Of a stretch of DNA of 64,000 nt, positions 45,971 to 63,315 are shown piece by piece (within the stretch, counting starts at the first letter, position 1; each line of letters opens with the position of its first letter). Made by a program: the position numbers and the translations under genes. The notes beneath the pieces were generated by a model. The model ran no database searches. It was not told where the DNA came from and saw only the letters and a list, made by a program, of their open reading frames with translations. Origin of the DNA: Salinimonas iocasae (GTDB taxonomy: Bacteria > Pseudomonadota > Gammaproteobacteria > Enterobacterales > Alteromonadaceae). Where the stretch lies: NCBI RefSeq assembly GCF_006228385.1, contig NZ_CP039852.1, positions 3,178,001-3,242,000 on the forward strand, in the 5' to 3' direction.

Positions 45971-47818
45971 TTATGTCCAGCTTACCAGCCCAATCACACC
46001 AAAATACGCCAGGTAAATGACTACCACCAGCTGAAGCGCAAGATAGACAGCTACAAAGCCGCGCAGCCAGCGTGACGTTGATGGACCACGATATTTAATG
46101 CGTTTCCAGCATGCCCATAATGTGACTATAGCTAACAGGATTGACGCAATAAACAGCGCCACGGAAATGGGCCCCGGTCCACCGAGATTGTCAAAAGGAT
46201 TGCTGAGCCCTACACCGATTAAGACTAAAAACGCCACGGCAATCAGGGCAGATAAAGACATCCATTTACGCAGCTGCAGGCTATGGGCGCCGACTATTTT
46301 ACCTCGTGCCTTATTGATCAGCCAGACAGGCGTGTAAACTACAGTAATAACCAGCGTCAGAAACCACGCCAAAAATATAACCTTATCTGCTATAGCGCCA
46401 AATGCAGAGGTCGTAACGAAAACCCGATCACCGTAATGAATGACGTCTCCAGCTACCGGATCGGTGGCGCTGGTCATTACAATCTCTCCCTTATCATTGC
46501 TCCAAATATCATTGCCAACATAAACAATATCTCGTTGCCAGCCAGGATTTGCCACCATAGAAAGGTGTGCACCCTCATCGTTGATATCAATTAAAACAGG
46601 CGAAGCTATTCTCTCGATAAAATACTGCTTTTCTATACGCGGATTGATAAGACGATAGTAACCTGACAGTTCCTGCCACCGCTGGGGTACCGGTTCCGCC
46701 TTTACAGTCGGTACAGTATTCTCCTGTGCGATAAAGTCTGCCAGCAATCTTGCAGCTTTATAGAATGCCCTGGGGTTTTCATCATTAAGGAGTAGCGCAA
46801 AGCCGGTCCCGTTGTCAGGTAAATAAGACAGCTCCGACGTCCATCCGGGTAACGAGCCATCGTGGCCCCGATATCCCCAGCCATCATAATAACGAGAGAA
46901 GTTATAGACCCCATACCCGGCATCAAATTTACCCGCATTGGTGGTTTGAGATTGCTCCATACGCTTGATGGATTCAGCATTTAGCAACGGCTTTCCCCGT
47001 TCTGTAAAAAAGGTCAGTAGACGCTGCATATCACTAATGCTAGATGAGGCGCCCCCCGCGGGGTACATCAGTAAATGGTCGTGCTCTACGATATTGCCCC
47101 CACTATGTCCTTCTGCCATCGTGACCGACTCAAGCGCGGTGCCGTAAAATGTGTGATTCATGCCTAAAGGTGTGAATATCTCGGTTTGCACATAGTCGGT
47201 AAAAGGCTGCTCCGTGACTTTTTCAATAAGCAGCGCGGTAACCGCCGCAGCGGTGTTTGAATAGGAATGGCGAGTACCGGGAGCCCACCGGCTGATATGA
47301 CTGTCAGGCTGAAAACGCAACGCTTCAGTTAAAGGCATCACTGGCTGATTATCATACACAAATTCTGCCAGCGACATTTCGTCAAAGCCTGTTGTGCTTT
47401 CCAACAAATGTTTAACTTTTAACGGGTGTGTTGCTTCCCAAGGATTTTCAAATTCGAATTCTGGCAGCACTTCGGCAACGTTCGAATCGGGATCTATCCT
47501 CCCCTCCTCAATAAGCTGCATTGCCGCAATCCCTACAAACATTTTACTTATAGAAGCAATTCGGTAAGCGGTGTCGGCGGTAACCGGAGTTTCCTGCCCT
47601 TTTTGTAACGAGCCTATCGTTTTTATATGCGCAGGTTTATCAGGTTGAACAATTGCGTAGGACAGTGAGGGAAGGTTTTCTTTTTTGACCAGTTCGGCCA
47701 TGCTTTTATCAAGTGAATCAAGGGTAACGGGAGGGGATTCGCTGGCCAGCGCGGGGAGACAAAACAGCCACCCACTCACCGCCATAGCCATTGCAAGTAA
47801 CCTTATCGGCTTCAACAT
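45971..47818 (-). CDS. Membrane-anchored serine hydrolase, beta-lactamase/class C fold
   Basis: 615 residues from ATG 47818 (AGGAAG six bases upstream). Signal peptide LLAMAMAVSGWLFCLPALAS, then a penicillin-binding-type hydrolase domain (about 30-370) with SxxK in YRIASISKMF (near residue 90), YSNTAAAVTALL (Tyr-x-Asn) and GYRGHDGSLPGWTSEL. A beta-rich linker follows, and the C-terminus has about four membrane spans (VIFLAWFLTLVITVVYTPVW onwards). This layout is that of peptidases/esterases of the EstB/AmpC-like group. The substrate is unknown; a D-amino peptide or an ester is likely. Confidence 0.88.
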   Translation of the reverse strand: MLKPIRLLAMAMAVSGWLFCLPALASESPPVTLDSLDKSMAELVKKENLPSLSYAIVQPDKPAHIKTIGSLQKGQETPVTADTAYRIASISKMFVGIAAMQLIEEGRIDPDSNVAEVLPEFEFENPWEATHPLKVKHLLESTTGFDEMSLAEFVYDNQPVMPLTEALRFQPDSHISRWAPGTRHSYSNTAAAVTALLIEKVTEQPFTDYVQTEIFTPLGMNHTFYGTALESVTMAEGHSGGNIVEHDHLLMYPAGGASSSISDMQRLLTFFTERGKPLLNAESIKRMEQSQTTNAGKFDAGYGVYNFSRYYDGWGYRGHDGSLPGWTSELSYLPDNGTGFALLLNDENPRAFYKAARLLADFIAQENTVPTVKAEPVPQRWQELSGYYRLINPRIEKQYFIERIASPVLIDINDEGAHLSMVANPGWQRDIVYVGNDIWSNDKGEIVMTSATDPVAGDVIHYGDRVFVTTSAFGAIADKVIFLAWFLTLVITVVYTPVWLINKARGKIVGAHSLQLRKWMSLSALIAVAFLVLIGVGLSNPFDNLGGPGPISVALFIASILLAIVTLWACWKRIKYRGPSTSRWLRGFVAVYLALQLVVVIYLAYFGVIGLVSWT

Positions 47819-47881
47819 GATGTACTTCCTTTTATAAATTAACATCCTGTACTGATCCATCGCATGGATCACAGGCCGCAC

Positions 47882-48258
47882 ATCAATGGTTATTCGTTTT
47901 TATCTGAGGATGGCAGCCATAACACTACGCTTAAAAAGCAGAAAAAGAAAAGGGTAACAATTGTTCTGCCAAAAATGCGTGAGCGTTTGAAATTTAAGTA
48001 TTTATCGCTATCTACTTTATCAGAACGGGTGAAAAAATCACCTGATATTTGATGGTAAGGCAGGCTTTACCAACTGTAGTAGCGTATTAAAAAACATCGT
48101 TCTGACTGACTGGAAATGCTGCCCTTGGCCACAACATAGCCGCAAATGAGAAGTTGTTCGAAACGTATTCCACTTATGACGTCTGCTACACCAGCAATGT
48201 GATACCCATGCCTCAAATTGAGCAATCATTGGGTAAGATTTTTGTCTTTTTAAAAGTA
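47882..48258. other. Gene-free stretch downstream of the small minus-strand genes
   Basis: No frame here has a ribosome binding site or a protein-like composition that I trust. Small symmetric elements are present (GGTGAAAAAATCACC near 48029; TGGTAA-N8-TTACCA near 48052-48071) which may end transcription of the two-gene unit at 48259-48557. Confidence 0.4.
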
Positions 48259-48354
48259 CTATGATTTAAAGAACATATAATCCATCAGCATTAAAAACAC
48301 ACAAGTACAAAAGAACCAATAGCCTATCTTTTCTATTTTACTCTTTTCCTTCAT
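48259..48354 (-). CDS. 31-residue single-span membrane peptide, candidate immunity protein
   Basis: Short frame found by reading the minus strand. ATG 48354 has AAGGA seven bases upstream. The product begins with a charged segment MKEKSKIEKIGYW, continues with a hydrophobic span of about 17 residues (FFCTCVFLMLMDYMFF) and ends KS before TAG. It lies 47 bases downstream of the double-glycine peptide gene on the same strand. Tiny basic membrane proteins in this position are typical bacteriocin immunity proteins. Family membership cannot be shown; function is inferred from size, topology and position. Confidence 0.5.
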   Translation of the reverse strand: MKEKSKIEKIGYWFFCTCVFLMLMDYMFFKS

Positions 48355-48371
48355 ATCTTTTCCTTGAAAGC

Positions 48372-48394
48372 CGGGGCCAACATAAATGGCCCCG
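48372..48394 (-). other. Hairpin between the bacteriocin-like gene and its downstream partner
   Basis: Seven-base arms CGGGGCC and GGCCCCG with a nine-base AT-rich loop, located between the stop of the peptide gene (48402) and the start of the membrane peptide (48354). It may adjust the ratio of the two products. Confidence 0.55.
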
Positions 48395-48401
48395 AAAACT
48401 G

Positions 48402-48557
48402 TTAGGGAATGTTGTGAGCAGCATCATACAAGGACGAGCCTAGCCAGCTACCGATATGACCAAAAGCACCTGCCCCGTAGTCAGTCAAAAACAGTGCCCA
48501 CACTGCGACCGCCATTCCCCCTGAAATGTCATCCACTTCATGTTGTTTTAATTCAAT
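48402..48557 (-). CDS. Double-glycine leader peptide, bacteriocin/microcin-like
   Basis: Minus-strand frame of 52 codons ending in TAA at 48402. The first 14 residues (xELKQHEVDDISGG) fit the double-glycine leader consensus with acidic/hydrophobic spacing and an ISGG cleavage site. The remaining 37 residues are hydrophobic and Gly/Ala-rich (MAVAVWALFLTDYGAGAFGH, then a Trp/Leu/Ser segment ending AAHNIP), like class II bacteriocins and microcins. The weak point is the start: a TAG lies three codons upstream and only ATT (48557) or ACG (48560) is available, with AGGA 8-11 bases before them. Either a rare start codon or a decayed gene. No exporter gene is in view. Confidence 0.55.
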   Translation of the reverse strand: MELKQHEVDDISGGMAVAVWALFLTDYGAGAFGHIGSWLGSSLYDAAHNIP

Positions 48558-48813
48558 CGTTTTCTAAATCCTTATTGAAGGTTTAGTCTGCTGAATCCAG
48601 TGTCACGGTACAGCCAGACATGAATACTGTATAACAGCACGCATACCGTAACCGCTGTACTAAAGCCCGTGTTTTCTGGCTTACGCGCATGCTTTTACTC
48701 TGGATATTTGAACCAGAGCTATCATCCGATCATCGCAGGGGATTATTAATTTGCTGTAATACCAGCGAGTTAGCTGCTTCACGCATGAACTTTCTGTTTG
48801 CGATACAGTAGAA
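48558..48813. other. Upstream region of the bacteriocin-like gene
   Basis: Contains no credible protein gene. On the minus strand TATACA-type hexamers near 48630 could be promoter elements, and a hairpin CTCTGG-N9-CCAGAG lies at 48698-48718. It also holds the 5' region of the plus-strand esterase gene. Confidence 0.35.
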
Positions 48814-49683
48814 ATGTGTATGAAACTGCTCCTGATTATATTCGCTACCGTGCTACTGGGCGGCTGTGCAAAACTGATGTTTGCCACGGCTAACACCACC
48901 ACACTCACTTTTGATGGTGATATCACCGAAAATATTGCTTATGGCACTGCGTCCCGTCAAAAGCTGGATATTTTCGTCCCTGAGGACCTGGATGAAGGCA
49001 CTGCGCCAGTTGTGATATTTTTTCATGGTGGCCGCTGGAGCTTTGGTTCAAAAGATCAGTATCAGTTTGTCGGCATACGCCTGGCCTCGATGGGTTATGT
49101 AGCGGTATTACCTAATACAAGGCTGTACCCGGAAGTGAAATTTCCGACATTTGTTGATGATGCTGCAGCAGCGGTGGCGTGGATACAAAACAATATTCAA
49201 AAGTACGGCGGCAGTGAACAATTAATTATCAGTGGACACTCATCAGGTGCGCATATTGGTGCATTAGTGGTAGCCGACGAAAGTTATCTGAAAAAAGCCG
49301 GCGGCGATCCACAAGGCATTGATGCATTTGTAGGAATGAACGGTCCGTATGACTTTACGCCTAAAGCAGATGACCTTCGGGATATGTTTGGCCCGCCCGA
49401 ACAGTTCGACAAAATGGTTGTCACCCATTATATCGATGGTGGTGAGCCCCCGTTTGCGCTGATGTATTCATCAAATGATAAGACGGTGCACGAGCAGAAC
49501 CTGAAACGACTAAAGGCAAAAATAGAATCGGTGGATGGCCAGGTCAGTACCTACATTTATGATAAGGGCGAACATACCGGAACCGTCGCCGCATTAAGCT
49601 GGGCTAATCCTGATGATTTGCCAGTGGCAGATGACATGCAGGCCTTTATACAAAAATATGTTCTTACCCCGAAGCAAAGGTAA
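48814..49683 (+). CDS. Alpha/beta hydrolase lipoprotein (carboxylesterase type)
   Basis: 289 residues. Lipoprotein signal KLLLIIFATVLLGGC (Cys about 18), then an esterase fold: oxyanion motif FFHGGRWSFGSK (HGG), nucleophile elbow ISGHSSGAH (Ser in GHSSG, about residue 150), and late acid/His region with GEHTGTV. It resembles the HSL/BD-FAE-like esterases that act on short esters. Two ATGs (48814 and 48820) are possible and neither has a clear ribosome binding site. It diverges from the bacteriocin-like unit. Confidence 0.85.
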   Translation: MCMKLLLIIFATVLLGGCAKLMFATANTTTLTFDGDITENIAYGTASRQKLDIFVPEDLDEGTAPVVIFFHGGRWSFGSKDQYQFVGIRLASMGYVAVLPNTRLYPEVKFPTFVDDAAAAVAWIQNNIQKYGGSEQLIISGHSSGAHIGALVVADESYLKKAGGDPQGIDAFVGMNGPYDFTPKADDLRDMFGPPEQFDKMVVTHYIDGGEPPFALMYSSNDKTVHEQNLKRLKAKIESVDGQVSTYIYDKGEHTGTVAALSWANPDDLPVADDMQAFIQKYVLTPKQR

Positions 49684-63011: not shown

Positions 63012-63056
63012 CTGTGGTTTGTTTTGCCCGTGCTATAACGTATACTCCGGCGCTAT

Positions 63057-63243
63057 TCAGGTGCTTGTTTTTATTACAAGTTAAACGGGAAGTCAGTGAA
63101 AAGCTGACGCTGCCCCCGCAACGGTAAGCTCAGATCTCCGATCTTCATTTACATTAGCAAATGCTAAACGTCACTGTGAGCACTCATGGGAAGACGTAAA
63201 TGGCTTCGAAATGACGAAGCGAGCCAGCCCGGATACCGGCCTG
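63057..63243 (+). ncRNA. Cobalamin (B12) riboswitch
   Basis: The conserved series is present in order: AGGTGC, AAACGGGAAG, the GCTGCCCCCGCAACGGTAA core, CACTG, ATGGGAAGACG, and GCGAGCCAGCCCGGATACCG at the 3' side. It ends 73 bases before the btuB-type receptor and would shut its expression off when adenosylcobalamin is abundant. Confidence 0.95.
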
Positions 63244-63315
63244 ATACGCGGCTGACACTGAGTCAGCCTTTCCTATCAGCTGCACTCGGGCGGAGTGCTG
63301 TTACGGAATCATTTC

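Follow-up and report, generated by a model that had tools for sequence, protein, structure and literature searches.

A double-glycine bacteriocin-like peptide frame of the Alteromonadaceae, probably reduced and mute, beside a candidate immunity gene

Introduction

Two very small frames on the minus strand of a Salinimonas iocasae window (the whole stretch of 64,000 nucleotides analysed here) raise the question of whether a short gap between larger genes holds a working bacteriocin system, the remains of one, or no gene at all. The gap lies between a serine hydrolase-like gene (45971-47881, minus strand) and an alpha/beta hydrolase-like gene (48814-49683, plus strand), both named by eye, and the initial annotation, made from the sequence alone, read its contents as a class II bacteriocin or microcin followed by its immunity protein.

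Results

The minus-strand peptide frame, its leader and its 37-residue core were recovered as originally described (Table 1), and the frame is free of stops over 51 codons. When the window peptide was searched against some 5.8 billion proteins, P0001 was the sole relative returned, with 86% identity and 100% of the peptide covered; with an eight-sequence alignment as the query, 20 proteins, P0001 included, were obtained at E ≤ 0.1. P0015 is 69% identical to the window peptide across 100% of the query, so that the conservation of leader and frame in relatives, which the initial annotation had proposed as a check, is indeed found. A family profile of 20 members, from which the window peptide, P0001 and P0015 were left out, scores the window frame at 38.8 bits, against 4.4 bits for the runner-up among the window's frames and a maximum of 7.8 bits in 1000 dinucleotide shuffles of the intergenic stretch, a control that is strong against chance, though not wholly independent because the profile members were collected with queries containing the window peptide. 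Both features that define the family are present, namely the leader M.EL...E[IL]..[IV].GG and the C-terminal [FI]G..[LI]G..LYD..H. Its sequence places the window frame in a family of alpha-type double-glycine peptides that occurs in Alteromonas and in other Alteromonadaceae.

Table 1. Positions of the features described in the text. Plain numbers are positions in the window; L and G prefixes denote loci and genomes, respectively.
Feature	Position	Strand	Basis or remark
Alpha-type double-glycine peptide frame	48405..48557	-	sequence; homologues P0001, P0015; family profile
Leader IELKQHEVDDISGG of the alpha-type peptide	48516-48557	-	sequence
37-residue core of the alpha-type peptide	48405-48515	-	sequence
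Stop TAA of the alpha-type peptide	48402-48404	-	sequence
ACG ATT where a standard start is expected	48555..48560	-	sequence; P0001 begins Met-Ile there
ACG codon	48560-48558	-	sequence
In-frame TAG closing the frame upstream	48564-48566	-	sequence
Shine-Dalgarno-like AAGGA, 8 nt before ACG and 11 nt before ATT	48569..48573	-	sequence
G+C-rich hairpin of 8 bp, no T-run	48372..48394	-	folding
Shine-Dalgarno AAGGA of the 31-aa frame, 6 nt before its ATG	48361..48365	-	sequence
31-aa basic protein, one hydrophobic stretch, candidate immunity protein	48259..48354	-	sequence; G021 counterpart
Graspetide-like cluster: C39-ABC exporter, HlyD adaptor, ATP-grasp maturase-like, LuxR-type (by eye)	L020:5007-9908 (G000:C1 about 501.0-505.9 kb)		
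Rce1/CAAX-type (PF02517) proteins, another Alteromonadaceae genus	L095:406-1287; L097:421-1290		directly after alpha/beta pairs
51-aa membrane-type protein after the G064 alpha/beta pair	L056:5272-5427 (in L024, 1124-1279 on the minus strand)		profile

The window peptide has no Pfam match at E ≤ 10, and TIGR03949, the NCBIfam class IIb model, gives it 16.7 bits (E 0.0046), under the cut-off of 21.5 bits; the same model matches 15 of 23 family members at E ≤ 1, and its cut-off is exceeded by 4 of the 10 members scanned singly. A double-glycine leader ahead of a short core, as in class II microcins, is also found. Named genome contigs, a set in which the window's own genome may be absent, gave no match to the window peptide and two to the family protein P0005. 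A mobile origin was considered and rejected, with no plasmid match for P0005 (tblastn) or for the window DNA (blastn) and no match in viral contigs for P0014 and P0015.

The start of the frame had not been discussed in the initial annotation. Its end coordinate, 48557, is correct as a position but falls on the opening letter of an ATT codon and not of a standard start, and upstream of this ATT the peptide frame reads ACG, then AAA, then TAG. Inspection of the frame revealed no ATG, GTG or TTG from which the full leader could be translated; the sole common in-frame start is the GTG at 48536, with which half of the leader would be lost. The predicted protein P0001 starts MIELKQ, and its Met aligns, at the level of protein sequence, with the ACG of the window. 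ATT is a permitted start in translation table 11, and both ATT and ACG are weak starts. No sigma-70-like site was found within 48000-48900, against a mean of 2.2 in shuffles. The 51 stop-free codons count against silence, since with such a frame ATT could be a working start; even so, translation of the window peptide is most likely absent or very weak, and with neither a partner nor a standard start codon found, this copy is probably mute.

Members of the family were found in 13 of 59 Alteromonas genomes with an eight-row alignment at E ≤ 1e-4 (4 of the 13 being sources of the alignment rows), in 30 of 59 at a loose E ≤ 0.1, and in 26 of 246 sampled genomes of the Alteromonadaceae, spread over 10 of 52 genera, with a 23-row alignment at E ≤ 1e-4. 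The alpha peptides end in FG.GLG.GLYDA.H, and a second double-glycine peptide, beta, with a GYxxGYGxGY-like glycine zipper, adjoins alpha in 22 of 31 loci, a count that is descriptive because the beta profile (13 peptides) was built mostly from the loci counted. These 31 comprise 16 loci from early searches (down to E 4.2e-4, duplicates dropped) and 15 from the family-wide search, leaving aside matches for which no locus was returned, weaker matches and loci of the family search already counted, and they contain near copies (L090/L091 and L095/L096/L099). Outside the family, none of 185 Gammaproteobacteria genomes gave a beta match at E ≤ 1e-5, in a search that gave no signal anywhere and carries little weight.

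Beta is absent from the window locus (L001) and from L003, L004, L026, L033, L086, L092, L100 and L101, the last of which has two alpha-type matches; since these are nine of the 31 loci, an alpha without a partner may be nothing unusual. A beta-like frame in L004 (genome G017) is broken by a TGA, and comparison of L003 with L004 gives pN 0.051 and pS 0.132 for the peptide frame and 0.026 and 0.099, respectively, for the 64-aa neighbour. Genome G030 holds two decayed loci (L005 and L021/L018), one with a TAA in both peptides and the other with a TAG in the leader of the second peptide. Predicted metagenome proteins related to the first (P0003) and second (P0004) G030 peptides are full length, and P0018 is cut like the G030 copy. 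The broken members in G030 and G017 indicate that alpha/beta loci can decay.

A search of the window genome with the beta model returned the window peptide itself as the sole match above noise (25.5 bits, E 6.1e-5; next 15.5 bits), and the same search gave matches of 59.6 and 37.4 bits in G114. Of the two adjacent double-glycine peptides typical of class IIb, the window locus holds one. Of the first 33 residues of the window peptide, 27 match P0001, 26 match P0015 and 7 match P0014, whose beta-like class was assigned by eye; of its last 18 residues, 17 are shared with P0001 and 15 with P0014, whereas the seven remaining members of the nine compared match at 8-9 of 15-18, a comparison in which P0014 and P0015 are predicted proteins only, picked after the alignment had been seen, and P0014 is present in both alignments. 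The alpha-like N-terminus and beta-like C-terminus, noticed post hoc, fit a deletion that may have fused tandem alpha and beta genes.

The 47 bases and the hairpin that the initial annotation placed between the peptide stop and the ATG of the 31-aa frame are both there, and for the 56 nt from 48355 to 48410 a folding energy of −20.9 kcal/mol was obtained, with a z-score of −2.81 (2 of 200 shuffles equally good). A terminator was considered and rejected, as the hairpin is without a T-run and absent from the terminator listing. A further RNA element, a cobalamin riboswitch, was observed elsewhere in the window, at 63042-63258 on the plus strand (102.8 bits).

The 31-residue frame and its ribosome binding site agree with the initial annotation; its single membrane span is borderline, by hydropathy only (1.6 over 18 residues), and the frame fell under the threshold of the small-membrane-frame scan. 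The sister genome G021 is 79% identical to the window over both flanks, and the flank-identity search gave no match in it to window 48338-48652. Neither the alpha nor the beta profile matches L075, a stretch of this sister genome, and we claim no decayed relic of the peptide gene there: the alignment scores 55.0, the shuffles average 55.1, and 497 of 1000 shuffles do equally well. G021 does keep a 29-aa frame with a TTG start that is the counterpart of the 31-aa protein, with 29 base and 14 amino-acid differences over 29 codons; the frame is conserved no better than the flanks (67% versus 79%), with pN 0.299 and pS 0.506. When the same substitutions were placed at random, the frame stayed open in 22% of trials, and of those 2.9% had as few amino-acid changes; 20% had an equally hydrophobic stretch, so hydrophobicity adds nothing to the coding case. 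No other clear relative was found among the 59 Alteromonas genomes (next E 0.026). The case for coding is modest, and the position and size of the 31-aa protein, together with this coding evidence, make it a candidate immunity protein.

Small membrane-type frames lie behind the peptides in several related loci, with 64 aa in L003 and L004, one or two frames of 63-70 aa in L087-L091, 42 aa in L098 and 64-67 aa in L029, L031, L032 and L034, a tally that stands without a control count, small hydrophobic frames also arising by chance. In L005, L025, L027, L030, L096 and L100 the scan picked up no such frame behind the peptides, and other inspection of these loci revealed a 69-aa frame after the L005 peptides and, ahead of the L025 pair, one of 67 aa. 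An Rce1-like PF02517 domain was found after the alpha/beta pair in both of the two proteins scanned, from L095 (293 aa, 66.7 bits) and L097 (289 aa, 62.2 bits), and the same Rce1-type frame is present in L099. Genes for CAAX proteases and for small membrane proteins are both described as putative immunity genes in the type IIb operons of pneumococci (PMC4860687). The C-terminal part of the 51-aa protein in G064 matches the alpha profile (21.3 bits), and this protein may confer immunity by mimicry of alpha. A 44-aa frame in L085 (1120-1254, minus strand) has a similar-looking tail and no profile match.

A search of the window genome for a C39 peptidase-containing exporter, another check proposed in the initial annotation, gave one match (120.8 bits), a 721-aa ABC protein in which the catalytic Cys, His and Asp can be recognised by eye and which has a HlyD adaptor beside it (HlyD_3, PF13437, 47.7 bits). 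The exporter is unlinked to the peptide and lies beside another peptide cluster, at C1:504 kb against C1:3226 kb on the 3811-kb contig, that is, 2.7 Mb apart or 1.1 Mb the other way if circular; the window locus thus lies outside the distance of about 10 kb between toxin genes and type I exporter that the authors of the Cdz study used as their search rule. An ATP-grasp maturase-like protein (TIGR04187, 138 bits, under the cut-off of 350) and a 62-aa precursor adjoin the exporter, which therefore probably has a graspetide-like peptide as its own cargo; the C-terminal half of the precursor (RLTLPKKPIRYYTQAIGEDGGDLPDLLT) is identical in G021 except for the last residue. Since the genome holds further double-glycine peptides, at C1 about 2428.5, 3054 and 3623.5 kb (L052:4540-4987, L051:3943-4131 and L107:2043-2171), one of them a pair that has a 124-aa neighbour, it is plausible that the exporter is shared among scattered peptides of this type. 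At E ≤ 1e-3, all but one of the 59 Alteromonas genomes contain C39 matches, of which some are weak.

Discussion

The reading that we favour, and hold to be reasonably probable, is that the locus carries a reduced member of an Alteromonadaceae double-glycine bacteriocin-like family, silent or barely translated, beside a kept immunity candidate. Behind it stand the family membership of the frame, the pairing in its relatives, the state of its start codon, the beta search that found no partner and the C39 exporter in the genome. We file the window copy as a single, probably mute member of the family, beside an immunity candidate, because it is unpaired, scores under the TIGR03949 cut-off and has only ACG or ATT from which the full leader could start. 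The class II bacteriocin or microcin with immunity protein that was first proposed retains its double-glycine peptide, its small basic neighbour and a C39 exporter, but the family is a two-peptide one in most of the loci examined, no partner of the window copy was found and the exporter is unlinked.

By analogy, the family most likely works like the class IIb two-peptide bacteriocins, from which we infer export, killing and immunity, as well as the fusion and the silence of the window copy. A peptidase-ABC exporter would cut alpha and beta behind their GG; once released, the two would act jointly on the membrane of near relatives, with a small membrane protein, or else one of the Rce1/CAAX type, shielding the producer. 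The window locus would be a reduced form of this arrangement, in which a single alpha-type gene, with a C-terminus nearest to a beta-like peptide and no standard start, is followed by the immunity candidate; its silence would leave an immunity-only locus. A wider proposal can be put forward only tentatively: the family may be a Gram-negative counterpart of class IIb in the Alteromonadaceae with unlinked exporters, its loci repeatedly collapsing, through alpha/beta fusion, loss of the start or stops, until the peptides are mute and nothing but the immunity gene is kept, and with at least one locus (G064) in which the candidate immunity protein would be a membrane-anchored mimic of alpha.

The peptide could instead be a working one-peptide class II microcin, translated at a low level from the ATT, exported by the C39 protein and matched by the 31-aa protein as immunity. 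The intact frame with AAGGA upstream, the permitted status of ATT, the existence of other loci with no beta (9 of 31) and the exporter with its triad and HlyD adaptor are all consistent with this, but P0001 has its Met one codon earlier, at the ACG of the window, to which the spacing of the AAGGA is, by general knowledge, better suited than to the ATT; no promoter-like site was found, and the exporter is distant and beside another cargo. We regard this alternative as doubtful.

It is less likely still that the family consists of secreted signalling or self-lysis peptides, with the small membrane proteins as receptors or unrelated. No activity was found for any member, and one exporter with several scattered double-glycine peptides in the genome would suit signalling as well; bacteriocin-like peptides are also described as able to mediate autolysis (PMC11798529). 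In our judgement, however, the glycine zippers, the hydrophobicity, the varied membrane neighbours, the Rce1-type neighbours and the broken copies suit bacteriocins better, and we consider such a role improbable. The lack of a standard start and of a promoter-like site would also be expected of a chance frame in intergenic DNA, but the profile score of 38.8 bits against a shuffle maximum of 7.8 (n = 1000) rules this out, full-length relatives at 86% and 69% identity stand against it as well, and we give it practically no credence.

Antagonism between marine Alteromonas strains is perhaps under-read from annotated genes, because peptides this small are easily missed by gene callers. The family profile renders such peptides findable, and the series of complete pairs, alphas on their own and disrupted copies next to a retained small membrane gene offers a case in which producer, immune and sensitive states at sea could be tested. 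The literature on Alteromonas, searched by titles and the beginnings of abstracts, yielded no paper on a peptide family of this kind.

Among known systems, the class IIb bacteriocins of the lactobin A/cerein 7B (TIGR03949) and lactococcin G types resemble the family in their double-glycine leader, short hydrophobic core with GxxxG, paired genes and, as seen in the relatives, small membrane or CAAX-protease-type neighbours. The family differs from them in its Gram-negative hosts, and the window case in its unlinked exporter and in a single copy that is below the cut-off and without a standard start.

To our knowledge, the Cdz system of Caulobacter is the closest Gram-negative case. CdzC, CdzD and CdzI of Caulobacter crescentus are described as a two-protein glycine-zipper bacteriocin, secreted by a type I system, with a small transmembrane immunity protein, and the authors place Cdz-like systems particularly in the gamma-proteobacteria (PMC5380434). 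The likeness, drawn by description and not by sequence, lies in the Gram-negative host, the two-peptide make-up with a glycine zipper, the type I secretion expected for the family and the small membrane immunity candidate; the cdz cluster, however, holds its own exporter, and Cdz is reported to kill by contact, with surface aggregates (PMC5380434).

Class II microcins of the microcin V type share with the window case a GG/GA leader, a C39 exporter with membrane fusion protein in the genome and a small membrane neighbour, but the confirmed immunity proteins given for them are of 51-216 aa, against 31 aa here (PMC9746304); here, moreover, the exporter is unlinked and the relatives have a paired architecture. 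The pneumococcal blp loci are Gram-positive, and their operon is described as including exporter, signal and receptor genes, whereas their type IIb peptides, their CAAX-protease and small membrane immunity genes and their fluid sets of partners are much like what we find in the Alteromonadaceae family (PMC4860687).
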